64,000 bases of DNA. It comes from Modestobacter marinus. GTDB taxonomy: Bacteria > Actinomycetota > Actinomycetes > Mycobacteriales > Geodermatophilaceae. The DNA lies in NCBI RefSeq assembly GCF_011758655.1, contig NZ_JAAMPA010000001.1, forward strand, positions 558,001-622,000, in the 5' to 3' direction. A program made the position numbers and the translations under genes. The number at the start of each line of letters is the position of its first letter. Positions within the stretch are counted from its first letter, which is position 1. This document shows positions 14,756 through 46,885 of this stretch, piece by piece. The notes under the pieces are model-generated. The model saw only the letters and a list, made by a program, of their open reading frames with translations, made no database searches and was not told the origin of the DNA.

Positions 14756-15838
14756 GTGTCCCCCGCTGTGGACCCCGAGGCTGCGCTGCGGGAACTGCTC
14801 GGCCGGATCGCCCCCGGCACCGCCCTCCGGGACGGTCTGGAGCGGATCCTGGCCGGCCGTACCGGCGCGCTGATCGTCCTGGGCTACGACCGTGTCGTCG
14901 AGTCCCTCTGCACGGGCGGCTTCGCCCTCGACGTCGCACTGTCGGCCACCCGGCTCCGGGAGCTGGCCAAGATGGACGGCGCGGTGATCGTCTCCTACGA
15001 CGGCACCCGGATCGTCCGGGCCGGTGTGCACCTGATGCCCGACCCGACGATCCCCACCGAGGAGTCCGGCACGCGGCACCGCACCGCCGAGCGCGTGGCA
15101 CTGCAGACCGGGTTCCCGGTCATCTCCGTGAGCCAGTCGATGCACATCATCTCGGTGTACGTGGCCGGCCGGCGGTACACCCTCGAGCACCCCACGACCA
15201 TCCTGGCGCGCGCCAACCAGGCCCTCGCCGCCCTCGAGCGCTACAAGCTCCGGCTCGACGAGGTGGCGAGCACGCTGTCCGCGCTGGAGATCGAGGACCT
15301 CGTGACGGTCCGTGACGCGATGAGCGTCAGCCAGCGCCTGGAGATGGTGCGGCGGATCGCCGACGAGATCGAGGGCTTCGTCGTCGAGCTGGGCACCGAC
15401 GGCCGGCTGCTCGCGCTGCAGCTGGACGAGATGCTCGCCGGCGTCGAGGAGGACCGCGGCCTGCTGGTCCGCGACTACCTGCCGAGCGGGCGCCGGGACC
15501 GTTCCGGCGAGGAGGTCCTCTCCGACCTGCGTGCCCTGTCGGCCACCGAGCTGCTCGACCTCTCCGCCGTCGCCCGCTGCTACGGGCTCCCCACCTCCCC
15601 CGACGCCCTGGACTCCCCGGTGAGCCCGCGCGGCTACCGGCTGCTGGCCCGGGTCCCCCGGCTGCCGGCGGGCATCATCGACCGGCTGGTGGCGCACTTC
15701 GGTGGGCTGCAGAAGCTGCTCGCGGCGACCATCGAGGACCTCCTGGCGGTGGAGGGCGTCGGTGAGGCGCGGGCGCGCGGCATCCGGGAGGGGCTGTCCC
15801 GGCTCGCCGAGACCTCGATCCTCGACCGCTACAGCTGA
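14756..15838 (+). CDS. disA: DNA integrity scanning diadenylate cyclase DisA
   Basis: A 360-residue DisA that makes cyclic di-AMP from two ATP and scans DNA for branched structures. The diadenylate cyclase domain has the DGA motif (residues 74-76, KMDGAVIV) and the RHR motif (107-109, GTRHRTAE). A helical linker and a C-terminal helix-hairpin-helix DNA-binding domain ([15 protein letters not shown]) follow. GTG at 14756 has CAGGAG 5 nt upstream. Its stop codon lies within the first unit of a 29-bp tandem repeat. In this window the osmoprotectant importer at 32557 is a possible c-di-AMP-responsive target. Confidence 0.96.
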
Positions 15839-16034
15839 GCAGCCTCGTCCCGGAGCCCTACCGCTGAGCAGCCCCGTCCCGGAGTGCCACCGCTGACCGG
15901 CCCCGTCCCGAGGCCCTGTCGCTGAGCGGCCCCGTCCCGCGGCGCCACCGCTGAGCAGCCCCGTCCCGCGGCGCCACCGCTGAGCAGCCCCGTCCCGCGG
16001 CGCCACCGCTGAGCAGCCCCGTCCCGGAGCTCGC
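15834..16034. repeat. 29-bp tandem repeat at the end of disA
   Basis: Almost seven units of 29 bp follow each other without spacers, starting at 15834, 15863, 15892, 15921, 15950, 15979 and 16008. Each opens GCTGAGCAGCCCCGTCCC with few changes, and units 5 and 6 are identical. The first unit contains the disA stop codon. Since 29 is not a multiple of 3, it cannot be a simple protein repeat. It is a minisatellite (VNTR) and fills most of the 385-bp gap between disA and the next gene. Confidence 0.9.
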
Positions 16035-30167: not shown

Positions 30168-32264
30168 TCAGCGCTGGCCGAGCACCCGGGCGAGGACGTC
30201 GTCGGCGGCGTCCTCGCCCTCCTCGCGGTAGCGGCGCCGCCGGGACCGGCCGCCAGTGGGTGCCTGGACCCCGCTGCCGGCCAGGATCTGCTCCAGCCGG
30301 GCGTGCCCCTGGGCCGGCGGCGTCGGCCGGGGTGCTGGGTCCGCAGCCGGGCCGTCCGGCTCGACCGACCAGCTCGCGGGCAGCACGTCGCCGACCGGGG
30401 CCGGTCCGGCCGAGGACGCCGGGTCCGCCGGCGGCGACCAGGCAGCCGGCTCAGCCGGCGGTGACCAGGCAGCCGGCTCAGCCGGCGGTGACCAGGCAGC
30501 CGGCTCAGCCGGCGGTGACCAGGCAGCCGGCTCGGCCGGCGGTGACCAGGCAGCCGGCTCGGCCGGCGGTGACCAGGCAGCCGGCTCGGCCGGCGGTGAC
30601 CAGGCAGCCGGCTCGGCCGGCGGTGACCAGGCAGCCGGCTCGGCCGGCGGTGACCAGGCAGCCGGCTCGGCCGGCGACGCCCAGGACGGCGACTCGGTCG
30701 ACGGTGACCAGGCAGCCGGCTCGGCCGGCGACGCCCAGGACGGCGACTCGGTCGACGGTGCCGAGGACGGCGCCTCGGCCGGCGATCCCCACGAGGCCGG
30801 CTCCACGCGCGATGCCCAAGACGTGGCCCCGGCCGACGACCCCCGGGACGACCCGGCCGGCGATCCCCAGGACGTCGGCTCCGGGGACGGCGGCGGCCAG
30901 GACGCCCACGGCGGAGGCTCCGCGGCCGGCGCACCCGGTACGGGTGCCAGGTCCCCTGCCGGCGAGCCGGCGCTCGTGACCAGGTGGTCCGCCGGGGCGG
31001 CGTGGCTGCGTCGACGACCGGTCGCGGGGGCGACGTCCTCCTCGTCGGGCTCGGCGGCCCGGCGGTGACGACGCCGCGGCGGCTCCGCCGGCTCTGGCAT
31101 CGCACCCACGAGGTCGGACACGCGGAGCGCCGGCTCGGGCAGCGGCGGCCGGGAGGCCATCGGCACCACCGGCGGCTCAGCGGGCGGACGGGCGGCCTCG
31201 TCGAGCAGCGCCTGGTCCTCCAGCCACGCCAGCGGGGACTTCGGGCTCGGTTCGACCCACGGCTCGAGCACCGCCTCCTCGACCAGCCACTCCATCGGCG
31301 AGGGCGGCCGGTCCCGGGCGGGCGACTCCTCCTCGGCGGGCGCAGACACGGCGGCCCGAGCCGGCGCGGGCGCGGTGGGCACCGACGCGGCAGGCGCGGA
31401 GATGACGGTCGCGGTGGCGACGTCCTCGGCAGACGCGGACCCGGCAGACCCGGACCCGGCAGACGTGGACCCGGCAGACGTGGACCCGGTGGGCGCGGTC
31501 GAGGTGACCTCGGCGGCCGCAGGGGGTGGCGTGCCCGGCGACGACGGGGATGCGTCGAGGGGGTCGGCCACGGCCGTCGGGAGAGCCCGGGCTGCCTCGC
31601 TGCGGGAGTCCCGCCCGGCCGGGGACGACAGCCATCCGGAGGACTCCCACGCCGGCGCGCCCTCCACCGCGCGACCGGCGTCGGTGGCCTGCGCCGGGCC
31701 GCGGACGGACTGCGCCCGCATCACCATGCGCTCGATCAGCAGCTCGCCGGACAGCTGCTCGGTCAGCTCACCGCGCATCCGGCCGAGGTCGCTGCGCAGC
31801 TCCCCCCACCCGGCGAGCTCGGCGCGCAGCTCGCGCAGGACGGTCAGCTCGCCACGCAGCTCGGTGAGGGCGGCGAGCTCGGCACGCAGCTGACCGAGCT
31901 CACCGTCCGCGGTCTGCTCGGCCTCGCGCCGGAGCCGGTTCTCCAGCCGGGCCTCGTACTCGTGCCGGGCGGCGACCTCCCGCGCCAGCTCTAGGTCGTA
32001 GGCGTGCCGGAGCTCGGCCTCCCGGGCAGCGGCGGCCACCTGGTCGGCGCGGCGGCTGCCGGCGAGGAAGGCGGCGATCACGAAGGCCCAGCAGACGGCC
32101 AGCAGCGCGACCCGCAGGTACTGCGGGTCCTCGGTCAGGAGAGCCGCGGCCGTGGCCGGCACGGCCAGCAGGAGCGCGATCGCCGACCAGACCCGCGAGC
32201 CCCCCTCAGCCGGTGTGACCGCGGTCAGGTCACCGCGAGTGACTTCAACCTGACGACCGGTCAT
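30168..32264 (-). CDS. DUF6779-like membrane protein with Pro/Ala repeat tail
   Basis: A 698-residue protein related by position and layout to mycobacterial Rv3604c (between DUF2520 and DUF3180 genes). Two transmembrane helices (SAIALLLAVPATAAALL and LRVALLAVCWAFVIAAFLAG) are followed by a coiled coil (about residues 80-180, repeating LRELRAELA). A long Pro/Ala/Ser-rich region comes next, with about nine copies of AEPAAWSPP near the end, and a basic C-terminus (GGRSRRRRYREEGED...VLARVLGQR). ATG at 32264 begins MTGRQVEVTRGD. The role is unknown; the architecture suggests a cell-envelope or septum scaffold. Confidence 0.75.
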   Translation of the reverse strand: MTGRQVEVTRGDLTAVTPAEGGSRVWSAIALLLAVPATAAALLTEDPQYLRVALLAVCWAFVIAAFLAGSRRADQVAAAAREAELRHAYDLELAREVAARHEYEARLENRLRREAEQTADGELGQLRAELAALTELRGELTVLRELRAELAGWGELRSDLGRMRGELTEQLSGELLIERMVMRAQSVRGPAQATDAGRAVEGAPAWESSGWLSSPAGRDSRSEAARALPTAVADPLDASPSSPGTPPPAAAEVTSTAPTGSTSAGSTSAGSGSAGSASAEDVATATVISAPAASVPTAPAPARAAVSAPAEEESPARDRPPSPMEWLVEEAVLEPWVEPSPKSPLAWLEDQALLDEAARPPAEPPVVPMASRPPLPEPALRVSDLVGAMPEPAEPPRRRHRRAAEPDEEDVAPATGRRRSHAAPADHLVTSAGSPAGDLAPVPGAPAAEPPPWASWPPPSPEPTSWGSPAGSSRGSSAGATSWASRVEPASWGSPAEAPSSAPSTESPSWASPAEPAAWSPSTESPSWASPAEPAAWSPPAEPAAWSPPAEPAAWSPPAEPAAWSPPAEPAAWSPPAEPAAWSPPAEPAAWSPPAEPAAWSPPAEPAAWSPPADPASSAGPAPVGDVLPASWSVEPDGPAADPAPRPTPPAQGHARLEQILAGSGVQAPTGGRSRRRRYREEGEDAADDVLARVLGQR
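30430..30780. repeat. 27-bp in-frame tandem repeat in the DUF6779 gene
   Basis: Nine nearly identical 27-bp units (30430-30672) read AEPAAWSPP on the minus strand. Four diverged units follow to 30780, alternating two variants. A smaller 15-bp repeat encoding STSAG lies near 31430-31500. Because 27 is a multiple of 3, copy-number change keeps the frame. Confidence 0.9.
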
Positions 32265-32556: not shown

Positions 32557-33693
32557 ATGATCCGGTTCGACGCGGTGTCCAAGGAGTTCCCCGACGGCAC
32601 GGTCGCCGTCGACGCGCTGAGCCTGACCGCGGCGTCGGGGCAGATCACCGTGCTGGTCGGGCCGTCCGGCTGCGGGAAGACCACCAGCCTGCGGATGATC
32701 AACCGGATGATCGAGCCCAGCGCGGGCACCATCACGATCGACGACCGCGACGTCATGTCCGTGCCGCCCGCCGAGCTGCGCCGCGGCATCGGCTACGTCA
32801 TCCAGCACGCGGGGCTCTTCCCCCACCGCACCGTCGTGGACAACGTCGCGACCGTGCCGCTGCTCACCGGCACCCGCCGTCGGGAGGCGCGGGCCCGCGC
32901 GATCGAGCTGCTCGAGCGGGTCGGGCTGCCCGCCTCCTTCGCCGACCGCTACCCGGCCCAGCTCTCCGGCGGCCAGCAGCAGCGGGTGGGCGTGGCCCGG
33001 GCGTTGGCCGCCGACCCGCCGGTCCTGCTGATGGACGAGCCGTTCAGCGCCGTCGACCCGGTGGTGCGCGACCAGCTGCAGCAGGAGTTCCTGCGGCTGC
33101 AGGACGAGCTGGGCAAGACGATCGTGTTCGTCACCCACGACATCGACGAGGCGATCCGGCTCGGTGACCAGGTCGCCGTGCTCGCCGTGGGCGGGCGGCT
33201 GGCCCAGCTCGCCGCCCCGGCCGAGCTGCTGGCGAGACCGGCGGACCCGTTCGTCGCCGGCTTCGTCGGCCGCGACCGCGGCTACCGCGCACTCGCCTTC
33301 GTCTCCGCCGAGGTCGCCGTCACCCCCGAGCCCACCGTGGCCCTCGGCTCGGCACTGGCCCGGGCGCACGACGTCGCCGTCGACGAGTGGGTGCTGGTGG
33401 TGGACGACGCCCAGCGACCGCAGGGCTGGCTGCACCTGCGTGCCCATCCCGACGGCGGCGCCGGACCCGCACCCGGCGACGTCGTCTCCCCTGACCTGCT
33501 CAACCTCGGGGGCACGCTGTCCCCCGTCGGCGGCACGCTCCGCGAGGCGCTGGACGCGGCGCTCTCCTCACCGAGCGGGCGCGGCGTGGTGGTCGACGAC
33601 GACGGCCGGCTCGTCGGCTCGGTGCTCGCCGGCACCGTGCTGGACCACCTGCGCGAGGAGACCGCGGGCGTCCCGGCGCGGGTGCACCCGTGA
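32557..33693 (+). CDS. Osmoprotectant ABC transporter ATP-binding protein (OpuCA/ProV-like)
   Basis: A 378-residue ATPase of the glycine betaine/choline/carnitine import family. It has Walker A GPSGCGKTTS, Q-loop YVIQHAGLFPH, signature LSGGQQQRVGVARAL and Walker B VLLMDEPFSAVDP. From about residue 245 there is a C-terminal regulatory region with two CBS-like halves (one ending GRGVVVDDDGRLVGSVL). In Firmicutes OpuCA such CBS domains bind c-di-AMP. ATG at 32557 has GAGGAGG upstream. Its stop overlaps the next gene by 4 nt. The 292 bp upstream, between this start and the divergent DUF6779 gene, contain no gene or clear promoter. Confidence 0.92.
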   Translation: MIRFDAVSKEFPDGTVAVDALSLTAASGQITVLVGPSGCGKTTSLRMINRMIEPSAGTITIDDRDVMSVPPAELRRGIGYVIQHAGLFPHRTVVDNVATVPLLTGTRRREARARAIELLERVGLPASFADRYPAQLSGGQQQRVGVARALAADPPVLLMDEPFSAVDPVVRDQLQQEFLRLQDELGKTIVFVTHDIDEAIRLGDQVAVLAVGGRLAQLAAPAELLARPADPFVAGFVGRDRGYRALAFVSAEVAVTPEPTVALGSALARAHDVAVDEWVLVVDDAQRPQGWLHLRAHPDGGAGPAPGDVVSPDLLNLGGTLSPVGGTLREALDAALSSPSGRGVVVDDDGRLVGSVLAGTVLDHLREETAGVPARVHP

Positions 33694-34382
33694 CCTCCCC
33701 CGGCGGATCGGCCCCCTGGGACCTGTTCGGGTACTTCGCCGACCACCGGGACGAGGTGCTGGCACTCCTCTGGTCGCACACCTGGCTCTCGGTGCTCCCC
33801 GTGGTGTTCGGGCTCCTGCTGTCCCTGCCGATCGGCTGGCTGGCCCGTCGCTACCGCTGGGCGTACCCGCCGATCGTGTCGGTGACCGGGCTGCTCTACA
33901 CGATCCCCTCGCTCGCCCTGTTCGTCGTGATGCCGACCGTCCTCGGGACGCAGATCCTCGACCCGGTCAACGTGGTCATCGCGCTGACCGTCTACACCGT
34001 CGCGCTGCTCGTGCGGGTGGTCGCCGACGGACTGGCCGCGGTCCCCGACGACGTCCTGCAGTCGGCCACCGCGATGGGCCTCACCCGGTTCCAGCGGCTG
34101 CGGTCGGTGGAGCTGCCGCTCGCCGTCCCGGTCATCGCCGCCGGCCTGCGGGTGGCCACCGTGGCCAACGTCAGCCTGGTCGCCATCGCCGCGACCATCG
34201 GCATCCCGCAGCTCGGCCAGTTGTTCATCACCGGGTTCCAGCTGTCGGTGACCGGCCCCTACTACCCGCCGATCGCGCTCGGCATCGTGCTCTGCGTGCT
34301 CCTGGCGCTGGCGCTCGACGCCCTCATCGTCCTGGGCAGCCGCCTGCTGACCCCCTGGCAGCGCGGGGCGGTGGCCCGGTGA
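33690..34382 (+). CDS. Osmoprotectant ABC transporter permease (OpuCB-like)
   Basis: A 230-residue permease with five or six transmembrane helices. The ABC inner-membrane signature lies in DDVLQSATAMGLTRFQRLRSV, the EAA loop contacting the ATPase. LLYTIPSLALFVVMPTVLG is typical of the ProW/OpuCB family. GTG overlaps the ATPase stop by 4 nt and its own stop overlaps the second permease by 4 nt. Together the two permeases form the membrane channel. Confidence 0.93.
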   Translation: MTSPGGSAPWDLFGYFADHRDEVLALLWSHTWLSVLPVVFGLLLSLPIGWLARRYRWAYPPIVSVTGLLYTIPSLALFVVMPTVLGTQILDPVNVVIALTVYTVALLVRVVADGLAAVPDDVLQSATAMGLTRFQRLRSVELPLAVPVIAAGLRVATVANVSLVAIAATIGIPQLGQLFITGFQLSVTGPYYPPIALGIVLCVLLALALDALIVLGSRLLTPWQRGAVAR

Positions 34383-35221
34383 CCGACAACCTCCTGGTCT
34401 GGCTCAACGACCCGCAGAACTGGACCGGCACGCGGACCAGCCCCGGGATCGGAGCGCAGGTCCTCGCGCACCTGCGGTACACCGGGATCGCGCTGCTGAT
34501 CGCCGGCGTGATCGCGTTCCCGCTCGGCCTGCTGCTCGGCCACACCGGCCGGGCCGGCTGGCTCGTCTCGGTCGCCAACGGGCTGCGGGCGCTGCCCACG
34601 GTGGGCCTGCTGATCCTGCTCTACGTCATGGTGTCGCCGCTGATCAGCGGCCGGGGCAACGCCGTCTACCTCGTGCCGACCGAGATCGCCCTGGTGCTGC
34701 TGGCGCTGCCGGCGATCCTGGCCAACACCCACGCCGGGGTGCGCAACGTGCCCCCCGCCGTCCGTGACGCCGCCCAGGGCATGGGGATGACCGGGCCGCA
34801 GGTGCTGTTCCGGGTGGAGCTGCCCAACGCCCTGCCGCTGGTCTTCTCCGGCGTCCGCAGTGCCGCCCTGCAGGTCATCGCCACCGCCACCATCGCGGCG
34901 TACGTCGGCCTGGACGGCCTGGGCCGCTACGTCTACGACGGGCTGGCCAGCCGGCAGTTCGGCCAGATGGCCGGCGGCGCGGTACTGGTGGCGTTGCTGG
35001 CGCTGCTGGTCGACGCCGTCCTCGCCCTCGTGCAGCGGTTCACCGTGTCCCGCGGGGTGTCCGGCCGGTTCTCCCGCCGGGCAGGCCGCGACAGCCGGAC
35101 CGCCGCCCTCGTCGAGCAGGCCGACGCCGACAGCCAGGACGCCGGCCCGCGCCCCAGCGGCCCGGACGCCGTCCCGGCCGGCGCCGGCACGGGCAGCTCG
35201 GCCGGGCGGCCCTCGGCGTGA
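34379..35221 (+). CDS. Osmoprotectant ABC transporter permease (OpuCD-like)
   Basis: A 280-residue second permease. Helices run from about residue 30 to 225 and the EAA loop is VRDAAQGMGMTGPQVLFRVELP. GLRALPTVGLLILLYVMVSPLI matches the family. A 60-residue Arg/Ala/Gly-rich cytoplasmic tail is longer than usual. The start GTG overlaps the previous stop by 4 nt. A 9-bp hairpin separates this gene from the binding-protein gene. Confidence 0.92.
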   Translation: MTDNLLVWLNDPQNWTGTRTSPGIGAQVLAHLRYTGIALLIAGVIAFPLGLLLGHTGRAGWLVSVANGLRALPTVGLLILLYVMVSPLISGRGNAVYLVPTEIALVLLALPAILANTHAGVRNVPPAVRDAAQGMGMTGPQVLFRVELPNALPLVFSGVRSAALQVIATATIAAYVGLDGLGRYVYDGLASRQFGQMAGGAVLVALLALLVDAVLALVQRFTVSRGVSGRFSRRAGRDSRTAALVEQADADSQDAGPRPSGPDAVPAGAGTGSSAGRPSA

Positions 35222-35309: not shown

Positions 35310-36269
35310 ATGAACCGCAGGATGGCCATGGCGCTGACCGGCGCGACAGTCCTGCTCACGTCGCTCGCCGCGTGCGGCGAGTCGGGCAGCAGCAGCACCG
35401 GCACGCCCGCCGGCGGCGCCGAGGGGGCCGGGGACACGATCGCCTCCGACCTCGTGCTCGGCGGCCCGCCGGAGTTCCAGACCCGGCCCGACGGCGTCCC
35501 CGGCCTGGAGGAGGTCTACGGCGTCACGTTCGGTGAGTTCCGCAGCCTCGACGCCGGCGGCCCGCTGACCGTCAACGCACTGGCCAACGGCCAGATCGAC
35601 GCGGCCGACATCTTCACCACCGACCCGAACATCGCGGCCAACGACTGGGTGGTCCTCGAGGACCCCGAAGACCTCTTCGCCGCGCAGAACGTGCTGCCGC
35701 TGATCAACACCGAGCAGGCCACCGACGGCGTCGCCGCCGTGCTCAACGCGGTGTCCGCGGAGCTGACCACCGAGGACCTCATCGCGCTCAACGAGCAGGT
35801 GATCATCGAGCGGCAGGACCCGGCCGCGGTCGCCGGGCAGTGGCTGGCCGAGGCGGGACTGGACGCGACGGGCACCCAGGCCGCCGGGGTGAGCCTCACC
35901 ATCGGGTCGGCGAACTTCCCGGAGAACGTCACCCTGGCCAACATCTACGCCCAGGCGCTGACGGCCCAGGGGGCCACGGTCGACACCCAGCTGAACATCG
36001 GCAGCCGGGAGACCTACATGCCCGCGCTGCAGGACGGGTCGATCGACCTCATCCCGGAGTACAGCGGCGTGCTGCTGGAGTACTTCGACGAGGAGGCGAC
36101 CGCGGTCAGCTCCGAGGAGGTCTACGCGGCGCTGCCCGAGGCCCTGCCGGAGAACCTGACCGTGCTGGAGCAGTCGGAGGCCCAGGACAAGGACGCCATC
36201 GTCGTGACCCGGGAGACCGCCGAGGAGTACGGCCTCACCTCGATCGCCGACCTGGCCGAGCAGCCCTGA
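35310..36269 (+). CDS. Osmoprotectant substrate-binding lipoprotein, circularly permuted
   Basis: A 319-residue OpuAC-family lipoprotein (signal peptide to the lipobox, Cys22 in SLAACGES) with AGGAGA before the ATG. In relatives as I know them the mature protein starts with the IGSANFPENVTLANIY lobe and ends with the LVLGGPPEFQTRPDG lobe and WLAEAGL. Here residues 48-184 contain the usual C-terminal half (from LVLGGPPEFQTR to QWLAEAGL) and residues 195-317 the usual N-terminal half (from LTIGSANFPENV to LTSIADLAEQ). A short DATGTQAAGVS linker joins the old ends. All parts are present, so function is likely retained. It ends the osmoprotectant operon. Confidence 0.88.
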   Translation: MNRRMAMALTGATVLLTSLAACGESGSSSTGTPAGGAEGAGDTIASDLVLGGPPEFQTRPDGVPGLEEVYGVTFGEFRSLDAGGPLTVNALANGQIDAADIFTTDPNIAANDWVVLEDPEDLFAAQNVLPLINTEQATDGVAAVLNAVSAELTTEDLIALNEQVIIERQDPAAVAGQWLAEAGLDATGTQAAGVSLTIGSANFPENVTLANIYAQALTAQGATVDTQLNIGSRETYMPALQDGSIDLIPEYSGVLLEYFDEEATAVSSEEVYAALPEALPENLTVLEQSEAQDKDAIVVTRETAEEYGLTSIADLAEQP

Positions 36270-36317: not shown

Positions 36318-36824
36318 TCAGGCGCGGGCGGACGGCGCCGCCGCGTCGTCGTCGCCGTCCGGCGGGATCTTGCAGACGTGCTCCAGCCACAGCGCCGCAC
36401 CCGTCAGGGCGGCGGCGAACAGCACGCCGAGGACGCCGGTGACGGTGTCCGCGGTGGCCGCGGACAGCCGGCCCAGCTGCGGCACCGTGTGCAGCAGCAG
36501 CCCCGCCCAGCAGCCGACGAGCACCGCGCCGACGTAGGCGCTGGCCTGGGCGAGCACCGCCACCCGGGCCACCAGCATCGGCTCGACCGGCCGGGTGGCG
36601 CCCGGGGCCCGGCCCGGCGGCGGGCGGCGGTCGCGCTGGGCGGACAGCCGGGCCGCCAGCGTCCGGGCGCCGAGCAGCTCGGCGACGGCGAGCACGCCGA
36701 GGGGCACCGGCAGCCACCACTGCAGCTGCGGCAGCGACCCGTACCCGGCCCGGACCAGCAGCCAGCTGGCCACCGCGAGCCCGACCGCGAGGGCCAGCAG
36801 GTCCCGGCGACGGACCGAGGTCAT
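36318..36824 (-). CDS. DUF3180 family membrane protein
   Basis: A 168-residue membrane protein with four helices in two pairs (LLALAVGLAVASWLLVRAGY, LPVPLGVLAVAELLGARTLA, then two after residue 80). DUF3180 proteins follow folK throughout actinobacteria (Rv3605c in M. tuberculosis, from memory), and their function is unknown. The ATG overlaps the folK stop by 4 nt, so it is translated with the folate genes. Confidence 0.88.
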   Translation of the reverse strand: MTSVRRRDLLALAVGLAVASWLLVRAGYGSLPQLQWWLPVPLGVLAVAELLGARTLAARLSAQRDRRPPPGRAPGATRPVEPMLVARVAVLAQASAYVGAVLVGCWAGLLLHTVPQLGRLSAATADTVTGVLGVLFAAALTGAALWLEHVCKIPPDGDDDAAAPSARA

Positions 36825-44158: not shown

Positions 44159-46885
44159 TCAGCGGCAGCCGCAGGCGGCCAGCGCGGCCGCCACGACGTC
44201 CAGTGCGGTCTCGGTGGCCGTGATGCTCCCGGTCGCGCCGTCGGCGAGCACCGCGAACGCCAGCAGCCGGCCGTCGGCGGTCTGCACCGTGCCGGCCAGG
44301 TCGTTGACGCCCAGCAACGTGCCGGTCTTGGCCCGCACCGACCCCGGGCTGCCCGGGCCCGCCGACACGCGGTCGGTCAGGGTGCCGTCGTACCCGGCGA
44401 CCGGCAGGCCGGAGAGCAGCAGGTCGGCGTCGGGGATGCTGCCGTCGGCGGCGGCCCGCAGGACGTCGACCAGCAGGCGGGCGGGCACCCGGTCGTCGCG
44501 GGAGAGCCCGCTGGCGTCGGACAGCGCGAGCCCGGCGGTGTCCAACCCGGCCTCGGCCAGCGCGGCGCCGATCGCCTGCGCGGCGCCGTCGAAGGTGGCC
44601 GGCAGGCCCCGGGCGAGGGCCACGTGCCGGGCCAGCGACTCGGCCAGCAGGTTGTCCGAGGCGGTGAGCGCCTGCTCGACCAGCCGGGCGACGGGCGCGG
44701 ACTCGACGGTGCCCAGCGTGCGTGCGCCGGCCGGTGCCGTGCCGAGGCTCACCGGGGCCTCCGGTGCGCCCAGCGCGGCGGCCAGGGCCGCACCGGCGTC
44801 GGTGCCCGGCGACCCGCTGCGCGGGGTGCTGCCGGGGGTCAGCCGGGCACCGTCGACCGCGGTGGCGGTCACCGGCGCGGCGTAGGTCGAGGGTGCGTCC
44901 TCCGCGCCCCAGCCCTGGGCGGTCAGCGGGCCGCTGAACAACGAGTTGTCGACCACGACGCTGGTGACCGGCTGGCCGCCGAGGGCCTGCTGCACCTGGG
45001 CGGCCAGGTCGGCGACGGTCGCCGCGCCCGGGTAGTCGACCGACGGGGCGGTCGTCGACAGGGTCGGGTCACCGCCGCCGACCAGGACGACCTCGCCGGG
45101 CGCGCTGCCGGCCACCACGGTCGTCGACAGGGTGTCGGTGGGCTTGAGCGTGGTGACGGCGGCGAGGGCGGTGAGCAGCTTGGCCGTGGAGGCGGGGGTG
45201 CTGGGGTCGGTCGCGTCGCGGTCGAAGAGCACCTGACCGGTGGCCACGTCGACCACCTGTGCGGAGAGGTCGGTGCCGAACACCGGGTCGGCGAGCAACG
45301 GGGTCAGCACGGCCGCGAGCGCCGCCGGGTCGGGCACCGGGGCCTCCGCGGACAGCGGGGCGAGCACCGGGTCGGGGTCGGTGAGCTCGGGCAGGACGGC
45401 GTCGGGCACCTGCTCGGCGTCCTCCGCCACGGCGGAGCCGTCACCGCCGACGAGGTCGAGGGCGAAGACGACGCCCGCCGCCACGAGCACGAGCGCGAGG
45501 ACGGCGGCGGCGAGCACCTTCGCCAGCCGGGCGCCCCCGCTGCCGGCCCCTGCCCGCCGCCGACCCGAGGCAGGCGTGGCACCCGCCGGTCCGGGATCAG
45601 CGGCGACGCTCCCGGAGGCGTGCGCGGGGACGCCAGGGCGACCGGCCACCCGGTCGGTCTGCCCCCGTTCCCCGCGCTGGTCCCGCGCCCCGGCTGCGCG
45701 GTCGGCCGCCGCGCGCTGCTCGGCCGCTGCTCTCTGCTCGGATGCAGCCCGGCTCTCCGCTGCGGCGCGGTCGGCCGCCACGGCGCGTTCGGCTGCCGCG
45801 GCACGGTCGGCCACGGCGCGGTCGGCCGCAGCCCGTTCGGCCGCGGCCCGCTCCGCCGCGGCCCGCATGGCAGCCTCCTGCTCGAAGGCCGCGCGTTCGG
45901 CGGCCATCGCCGCGGCTGCGGCGGCCCGCTGCCCGGCTGCCTCCTCCTCCGCCGCCCGCTCCGCCGCCACCCGGTCGGCTTCCGCTCGCTCGGCCGCCGC
46001 CCGTTCGGCCTCCGCCTGCTCGACGGCGGCCCGCTCGGCCGCAGCGCGCGCAGCCTCGGCCTCCTCGACCGCCGCCCGCTCGGCAGCGGCCTGTTCCTCG
46101 GCGGCCCGGGCCGCAGCGGCCTGCTGCGCTGCCCACTCCCGGACGGCGGCGAGGTCGGCGGCGGCCTGCTCGACCCGGGCTCGTTCGACGTCGGCCTGGT
46201 CGAGTGCGGCCTGGGCGGCGGCAGCACGCTCGGCGTCCTCGGCTGCCGCGCGCTCGGCGGCAGCGCGCTCGGCGGCCCACTGCTTCACTGCGGCCAGGTC
46301 GGCGGCCGCCTGTTCCGCGGCGGCGCGACGTGCCTCGGCGTCCTCCGCGGTCGGCTGCTCCGTGACCTGCTCGGGGGCCGATCGCTCGGACACCAACGGG
46401 CCGACTGTCTGTTCCGGCGCGGTCGAGGCCGTGGTCTCCGGGTGCCCCGGCTCGGCCTCCGCCGCGTCCGGCTCAGCGGGGTCCATCGCGGCGCCCTCCT
46501 GCACGGCGCCCTGCTGCTCGGCACCCTGCTGCACGGCGCCCTGCTGCTCGACGCCCTGCGAAGCGGCGCCCTGCTGCGCGGCGCCCTGCTGCTCGGCCGT
46601 CGTCGCGGCCGGGTCCGCATCCACAGGTGCAGCCGGTCCCGCAGCCGGGTCCTCCCCGTCGTCCAAGGCCGGGACGTCGATGTCGTCGGGAACCGGGGCC
46701 TCGGCGTCGTCGGCGGTCGGGGCCTCGACGTCGTCCGGGGCCGGAGTCCCGGGAGCCCCGACCGTCGGGATCGACGGATCGGGTGTCGTCGCGTCGCCGC
46801 TGGCAGCCGCCGAGGGTGGCACCTCCGGGGTGCCGTCAGGCTCCCCCGGCTGCTGTTCGCGCGGACTCGACGAGATCTCCCCCAC
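44159..46885 (-). CDS. dacB: D-alanyl-D-alanine carboxypeptidase/PBP4-like with very long cytoplasmic domain
   Basis: A 908-residue protein. The penicillin-binding domain (about 490-908) has the active-site STAK (Ser566, Lys569 in STPASTAKLL), SDN (743-745, TASDNLLAE) and KTG (853-855, AKTGTLLG), typical of class C low-mass PBPs that trim peptidoglycan. One transmembrane helix lies at about 452-477. The first 450 residues are cytoplasmic: an acidic Pro-rich part, QQGA repeats, and a 220-residue Ala/Glu/Arg coiled coil. Mycobacterial DacB has about 460 residues and lacks this domain. GTG at 46885 is the first plausible start facing ppa; its ribosome site is weak. Confidence 0.85.
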   Translation of the reverse strand: MGEISSSPREQQPGEPDGTPEVPPSAAASGDATTPDPSIPTVGAPGTPAPDDVEAPTADDAEAPVPDDIDVPALDDGEDPAAGPAAPVDADPAATTAEQQGAAQQGAASQGVEQQGAVQQGAEQQGAVQEGAAMDPAEPDAAEAEPGHPETTASTAPEQTVGPLVSERSAPEQVTEQPTAEDAEARRAAAEQAAADLAAVKQWAAERAAAERAAAEDAERAAAAQAALDQADVERARVEQAAADLAAVREWAAQQAAAARAAEEQAAAERAAVEEAEAARAAAERAAVEQAEAERAAAERAEADRVAAERAAEEEAAGQRAAAAAAMAAERAAFEQEAAMRAAAERAAAERAAADRAVADRAAAAERAVAADRAAAESRAASEQRAAAEQRAAADRAAGARDQRGERGQTDRVAGRPGVPAHASGSVAADPGPAGATPASGRRRAGAGSGGARLAKVLAAAVLALVLVAAGVVFALDLVGGDGSAVAEDAEQVPDAVLPELTDPDPVLAPLSAEAPVPDPAALAAVLTPLLADPVFGTDLSAQVVDVATGQVLFDRDATDPSTPASTAKLLTALAAVTTLKPTDTLSTTVVAGSAPGEVVLVGGGDPTLSTTAPSVDYPGAATVADLAAQVQQALGGQPVTSVVVDNSLFSGPLTAQGWGAEDAPSTYAAPVTATAVDGARLTPGSTPRSGSPGTDAGAALAAALGAPEAPVSLGTAPAGARTLGTVESAPVARLVEQALTASDNLLAESLARHVALARGLPATFDGAAQAIGAALAEAGLDTAGLALSDASGLSRDDRVPARLLVDVLRAAADGSIPDADLLLSGLPVAGYDGTLTDRVSAGPGSPGSVRAKTGTLLGVNDLAGTVQTADGRLLAFAVLADGATGSITATETALDVVAAALAACGCR
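46498..46600. repeat. 15-18 bp repeats in dacB encoding QQGA units
   Basis: On the minus strand the region reads EQQGAVQQGAEQQGAVQEGA, about six copies of a five- or six-residue unit, directly before the coiled coil of the DacB cytoplasmic part. The repetition is in frame and may vary in copy number. Confidence 0.6.

Follow-up and report, generated by a model that had tools for sequence, protein, structure and literature searches.

A naturally circularly permuted OpuAC-type binding lipoprotein in Modestobacter marinus and the probable recurrence of its segment order in Actinomycetota

The stretch analyzed here, 64,000 nucleotides of contig NZ_JAAMPA010000001.1 of Modestobacter marinus (the window), carries an open reading frame (ORF) for a 319-residue lipoprotein whose OpuAC domain is a clean and complete circular permutation that retains its lipoprotein signal. 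Very probably, this substrate-binding protein (SBP) of a four-gene ATP-binding cassette (ABC) importer is a natural circular permutant, of a kind that has arisen repeatedly and that would have originated by tandem duplication. Its wider setting, the OpuAC-type transporter family of Actinomycetota, is quite likely a permutation hot spot, in which the same half-turn has been fixed at least three times and cuts at two other positions have been fixed as well.

The Pfam OpuAC profile (PF04069) matches the protein at E 1.3e-53 and 182.7 bits, against a gathering score of 21.2, in two stretches of swapped order: residues 46-181 correspond to profile positions 113-257, and the second half to positions 2-111. 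Scanned alone, the two halves still score 98.8 and 89 bits respectively, which excludes a chance match. A first-pass annotation made from the bare sequence had already described the swap, and the motifs on which it relied are all present in the translation, namely the lipobox LAAC with Cys22, LVLGGPPEFQTRPDG at residue 48, QWLAEAGL ending at residue 184 and the C-terminal SIADLAEQP. The second half does follow an 11-residue joint as described there, but it opens with LTIGSANFPENV at residue 196 and not at 195. We divide the protein into segments S2a, S2b and S1 (limits in Table 1) and call the order S2a-S2b-S1 P0; canonical, or unpermuted, relatives run S1-S2a-S2b, while two other permuted orders are P1 (S2b-S1-S2a) and P2 (cut inside S2a). 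When a P0 profile was compared with the sequences of solved chains, 27 matched at E <1e-20, some of them engineered sensors. In 26 of them the best stretch puts S2 towards the end of the chain; the 27th, OsmF, has S1 at chain positions 4-128, so that its order is also opposite to that of the window protein.

An AlphaFold model of the protein has a predicted local distance difference test (pLDDT) score of 88.9 overall, block means of 97 for the joint and values mostly below 50 for residues 1-40. The model matches 2b4l sequentially from end to end, as expected of the BsOpuAC-type chain topology. Foldseek also returned some AfProX-type relatives at E about 2e-5, and VIA-align listed no AfProX-type chain among its 50 rows; this discrepancy gives no evidence that P0 and AfProX-type proteins differ in fold. 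With lobe limits as in AfProX, the new ends fall in the loop that leads into the first strand of lobe 2, and not at the hinge, where the rotation had initially been placed.

The P0 order is a lineage trait and no accident of one genome, contrary to the earlier view of it as a peculiarity of a single gene. The P0 gene is present in 8 of 23 Modestobacter genomes, the other seven proteins being 79-91% identical to that of the window. Of the remaining 15 genomes, 14 carry P1, and not an unpermuted orthologue, and one draft has neither P0 nor P1. P1 is also the order at all 21 further loci from the rest of the family (L034-L054), which are the best-scoring loci and no census. Samples of 397 genomes of the order, 394 of the class and 396 of the phylum were scanned under strict E-value limits that make the counts lower bounds, and P0 appeared as a single full-length match in at least 14, 5 and 12 of them, respectively, the window genome being included each time. 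Among the carriers are single-contig genomes of other families (G127 and G556), while P2 was found in two genomes. Permuted and unpermuted genes stand very close together: genus g28 of family f2 has both orders, permuted in G127 and unpermuted in G164, and two genomes, G816 and G840, each hold one copy of either kind. The canonical order is present in relatives up to 71% identical. This highest value belongs to the G164 protein (183/257), compared with 69% (178/257) for the permuted protein of G194, the nearest relative outside Modestobacter by tree path. A search of viral contigs found no relative. The plasmid search matched 382 records, all below 60% identity; both of the records opened adjoin hut-type genes, and L284, whose order was checked, is canonical.

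The case for repeated origins comes from two trees of 65 rows each, an SBP tree for which the segments were first put in a common order, and an operon tree of ATPase and permeases that is independent of SBP order. A single P0 clade is ruled out by the approximately unbiased (AU) test in both (p 1.4e-5 and 8e-45 for the SBP and operon data, respectively), as it was on earlier data sets. Uniting the P0 rows of families f61 and f102 with locus L168 is likewise rejected (6e-4 and 1.3e-6), f61 with f102 is not (0.34 and 0.29), and neither is the unity of P0-main, the group that includes the window protein (0.665 and 0.54 in two further tests). A quick tree built without row dropping needs five P0 changes, and its starred branches force four, L263 included. 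As the trees were rooted on paralogous canonical systems, and all major parts of the later trees contain canonical rows, the ancestor was likely canonical. Together, the tests support a history in which the same P0 order would have arisen at least three times, in P0-main, in f61/f102 and in L168. For the SBP tree 45 of 110 rows were dropped, the long-branched L263_P0 among them, and 10 for the operon tree, where L277 and L278 have no ABC genes nearby; an earlier operon tree kept 54 of 63 rows with an SBP, leaving out incomplete operons and the duplicate L104. One P0-main test used 48 of 110 rows and another analysis 20 of 40 P1 rows; the segment set excluded five S1-S2b paralog ORFs, L182 was left out of the paralog-rooted tree, and the quick tree lacked L182, L089, L180, L183, L184 and L259 (order unclear).

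It is plausible, as the first-pass annotation had suggested, that tandem duplication followed by trimming produced the new order. In this model, an unpermuted SBP gene would duplicate in tandem and the copies would fuse and be trimmed, so that the second half of the first copy continues directly as the first half of its neighbor. Because of the pseudo-symmetry of the type II binding fold, a cut in lobe 2 before its first strand would create ends equivalent to the old ends of lobe 1, leaving the path of the chain unchanged overall and now starting in the other lobe. The permuted protein would then still close on its ligand and hand it to the permeases, with the lipid tether leaving lobe 2 instead of lobe 1. 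The same pseudo-symmetry would explain why P0 is tolerated and recurrent and, if the explanation is true, it predicts where natural permutations succeed. Tandem SBP genes do exist in the family, as two separate P0 lipoprotein genes in Allobranchiibius (L111:7950-9856) and as tandem P1 genes at L175; both halves of the protein belong to the same canonical clade, and some rows have short xPAS/xIAS-like tails at either end, which are weak evidence.

Several results weigh against this reading and bear on its individual parts. The P0-main rows split weakly in three trees, and the p value for f61, f102 and L168 taken together is optimistic because that grouping was picked after earlier trees had been seen. 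L168 represents one draft genome, f102 contributes five rows to the SBP tree of which two were complete enough for the operon tree, and f61 and f102 may share one origin. No fused double-length intermediate was seen among the loci scanned, which leaves the duplication route to inference. Within Modestobacter, the P0 holders do not form one clade in a tree of folK, folB and folP, genes that lie beside the operon (AU p 8.6e-70). Operon divergence is about that of the flanks for G000 versus G005 and exceeds it for G000 versus G019; these values do not clearly make the operon younger than the flanking genes.

A possible but doubtful alternative is that the new order is adaptive, the lipid anchor having moved from lobe 1 to lobe 2 and altered the docking or closing of the tethered protein. 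All 24 P0 rows that were aligned retain the lipobox Cys22, tethered proteins are where the order recurs, and the anchor now leaves S2a, all of which would suit such a role. However, unpermuted relatives have lipobox-like N-termini too, a disordered spacer should absorb any change of orientation, P1 and P2 are cut elsewhere, and neutral tolerance explains the recurrence equally well. It is rather improbable that one ancient permutation to P0 was followed by several returns to canonical order or by replacements of the SBP gene. Chain order can in principle revert, both P0 groups share an xAS-like residue set before S2a, and the deep P0, P2 and P1 rows formed one clade (97/82) until deep canonical rows were added. 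With those rows included, however, both trees split P0 into three or more separate placements; the paralogous outgroups are canonical, the solved relatives are canonical (27/27), and the reversions would need as many rearrangements as the repeated origins that they replace.

Very improbable, in our estimate, is a chimera in which the halves were fused from two different genes. S1 and S2a are better conserved than S2b, and the S2 tree alone does not settle which canonical group is nearest to P0-main. Nevertheless, separately built S1 and S2 trees both place P0-main inside the same canonical clade (support 96 and 99), which disfavors a chimera, and the segment identities to the G164 protein are fairly even at 74, 74 and 65%. 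An assembly or annotation artefact is next to impossible even with some carriers' contigs in draft state, as the ORF is intact, dN (nonsynonymous divergence) is below dS (synonymous divergence) in 10/10 pairs of all five Modestobacter P0 genes compared, and the profile scores, the recurrence in genomes and the single-contig carriers rule out misassembly and chance. Reversed-order half-matches in this family can be real genes.

Rearranged lobe order had been thought to have precedents among such proteins, and similar cases are indeed in print. Permutation relationships among glycine-betaine-binding proteins were reported in 2008 with CPSARST for 2b4l, 1r9l and 1sw1, in pairs below 24% identity; section 11 of that report mentions neither a close pair nor repeated origins nor a series of cuts (PMC2395249). 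TpMglB-2 (Tp0684) is a circularly permuted, tethered glucose-binding lipoprotein that still binds its ligand, and an anchoring hypothesis has been raised for it (PMC4990184). Like the window protein, it is a tethered ABC binding protein permuted by nature; it differs in its type I fold (cluster B), its ligand and its cut. In the printed cases found, natural permutations of binding proteins lie between remote structures and their route has been lost, whereas here a pair about 70% identical occurs in the same operon type. We found no report in the open-access literature of a close permuted and unpermuted pair in one operon family, of the same cut made repeatedly, or of a P0/P2/P1 series. Natural pairs of this kind allow tests of how permutation arises, what it costs and what an anchor in the other lobe does.

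Among characterized systems, OsmF/YehZ and the AfProX-type proteins (OpuCC, OpuBC and EgtUC) have the same OpuAC domain, keep the equivalents of Arg59 and Tyr251 and work with an ATPase and two permeases, but have their halves in the opposite order and differ at several cage residues. The OsmF model of NCBIfam (NF049931) gives the window protein 82 bits where 400 are needed, and the unpermuted L062 fails it too (109.4). Bacillus subtilis OpuAC (2b4l, 3chg) is 12-16% identical in structural alignments and absent from the sequence profile matches; the window protein would have reached P0 order separately from it, and has unpermuted relatives at about 70% identity.

A comparison of the binding pocket with the contact residues of AfProX, mapped through the AfProX alignment, shows both retention and change. 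Arg59 and Tyr251 are kept (AfProX Arg149 and Tyr63), whereas Phe102 replaces Tyr190, and Ala201, Gln126 and Asp295 stand for Lys13, Tyr214 and Tyr111. Asp295 occurs in 21/21 P0-main and 30/30 related canonical rows and Gln126 in 21/21 and 28/30, and because both residues are common to the two sets the ligand was probably the same before and after permutation. An aromatic-lyase gene adjoins the operon in 9 of 12 P0-main loci outside Modestobacter (in the other three the contig ends first) and in 9 of 20 canonical loci of the P0-main clade. The Ala-Ser-Gly-type triad, which forms the 4-methylideneimidazole-5-one (MIO) cofactor, is missing from 21 of 22 aligned HutH-like lyases, a set that includes one rhizobial enzyme and counts one gene twice; L154, which has the triad, lies apart from its operon. 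Urocanase (L094) and imidazolonepropionase (L096) genes are found near some of these operons, and related systems on Neorhizobium and Aureimonas plasmids lie among hut genes. On these grounds, glycine betaine would be a less likely ligand than histidine or a histidine-derived betaine, of which hercynine is an example. The glycine betaine/proline substrate proposed at first finds no support in the pocket or in the gene neighborhood of the P0 clade, and annotation as a glycine betaine transporter may be wrong.

Two findings weigh against parts of the ligand proposal. A search of the window genome at E 1e-8 gave no match to the linked lyase, so the ligand argument rests on relatives. Ergothionase, stated in one report to be without MIO (PMC13405746), is not favored as the identity of the linked lyase, since the one such lyase compared with solved chains (L092) scores 158.7 bits with a histidine ammonia-lyase and 102.7 bits with ergothionase. 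Among the eight P0 Modestobacter genomes, only G010 links a lyase without the MIO triad to its operon (L085:4898-6301, minus strand). A Neorhizobium plasmid (L284:1902-6959) has a canonical relative followed by a hutH-annotated lyase that also lacks the Ala-Ser-Gly triad.

In the window, the genes for an ATPase and two permeases lie upstream of the SBP gene in the same direction (Table 1). The ATPase is matched best by an NCBIfam model of the betaine/proline/choline family, just below its cut-off, and the permeases by betaine/choline permease models, far below the equivalog cut-offs. The layout with the SBP gene last is common to most canonical loci and to P0, P1 and P2, although the nine P1 and two P2 loci compared have the ATPase gene on the opposite strand.

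Table 1. Features of the permuted importer operon and its flank in the window
Feature	Position	Strand	Basis
ABC transporter ATPase, ProV-like	32557..33693	+	TIGR01186 305.5 bits, cut-off 326.6
ABC transporter permease 1	33690..34382	+	NCBIfam models
ABC transporter permease 2	34379..35221	+	NCBIfam models
Permuted OpuAC-type substrate-binding lipoprotein (P0)	35310..36269	+	OpuAC profile, segment order, AlphaFold model
Signal peptide, lipobox Cys22 and flexible spacer, residues 1-45	35310..35444	+	Sequence, AlphaFold model
S2a, residues 46-109, first half of lobe 2	35445..35636	+	Profile/segment alignment
S2b, residues 110-184, WLAEAGL at end	35637..35861	+	Profile/segment alignment
New 11-residue joint DATGTQAAGVS, residues 185-195, linking old C- and N-termini	35862..35894	+	Alignment, AlphaFold model
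S1, residues 196-317, N-terminal part of unpermuted relatives	35895..36260	+	Profile/segment alignment
DUF3180-like gene, convergent, adjoins folK, marks shared locus	36318..36824	-	Gene order

The operon lies between a DUF3180-like and a DUF6779-like gene, beside ftsH-folE-folP-folB-folK. It adjoins the DUF3180 gene in the same way in 7 of the 8 P0 Modestobacter genomes, and in the eighth, G010, it is placed between folK and DUF3180. A P1-type ATPase, 49-53% identical to that of the window, adjoins DUF3180 in all 14 P1 Modestobacter genomes; in 13 of these the contig also carries the P1 SBP, and three loci (L086-L088) were read from end to end. It is clear from this arrangement that one fol locus has undergone replacement or differential loss, and transfer would be the likely route. 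A single recent transfer between Modestobacter species was also considered, and the dS comparison with the flanks gave it no support.

Two genomes of the phylum encode a P0-type OpuAC-like domain in one protein with a polysaccharide deacetylase and a peptidoglycan-binding domain (L263:631-2913, minus strand; L259:1084-3162, plus strand), a case of a binding domain put to use within a cell-wall enzyme; in L259, S2a was undetected by the segment model. Beside the operon in the window, a long minus-strand ORF contains a 27-bp tandem repeat of 13.6 copies (30418-30784) encoding AEPAAWSPP-type repeats. Further tandem arrays are found at 15827-16026 (29-bp unit, 6.9 copies) and at 45762-46597, where several arrays of mostly 15-bp units extend over about 800 bases.
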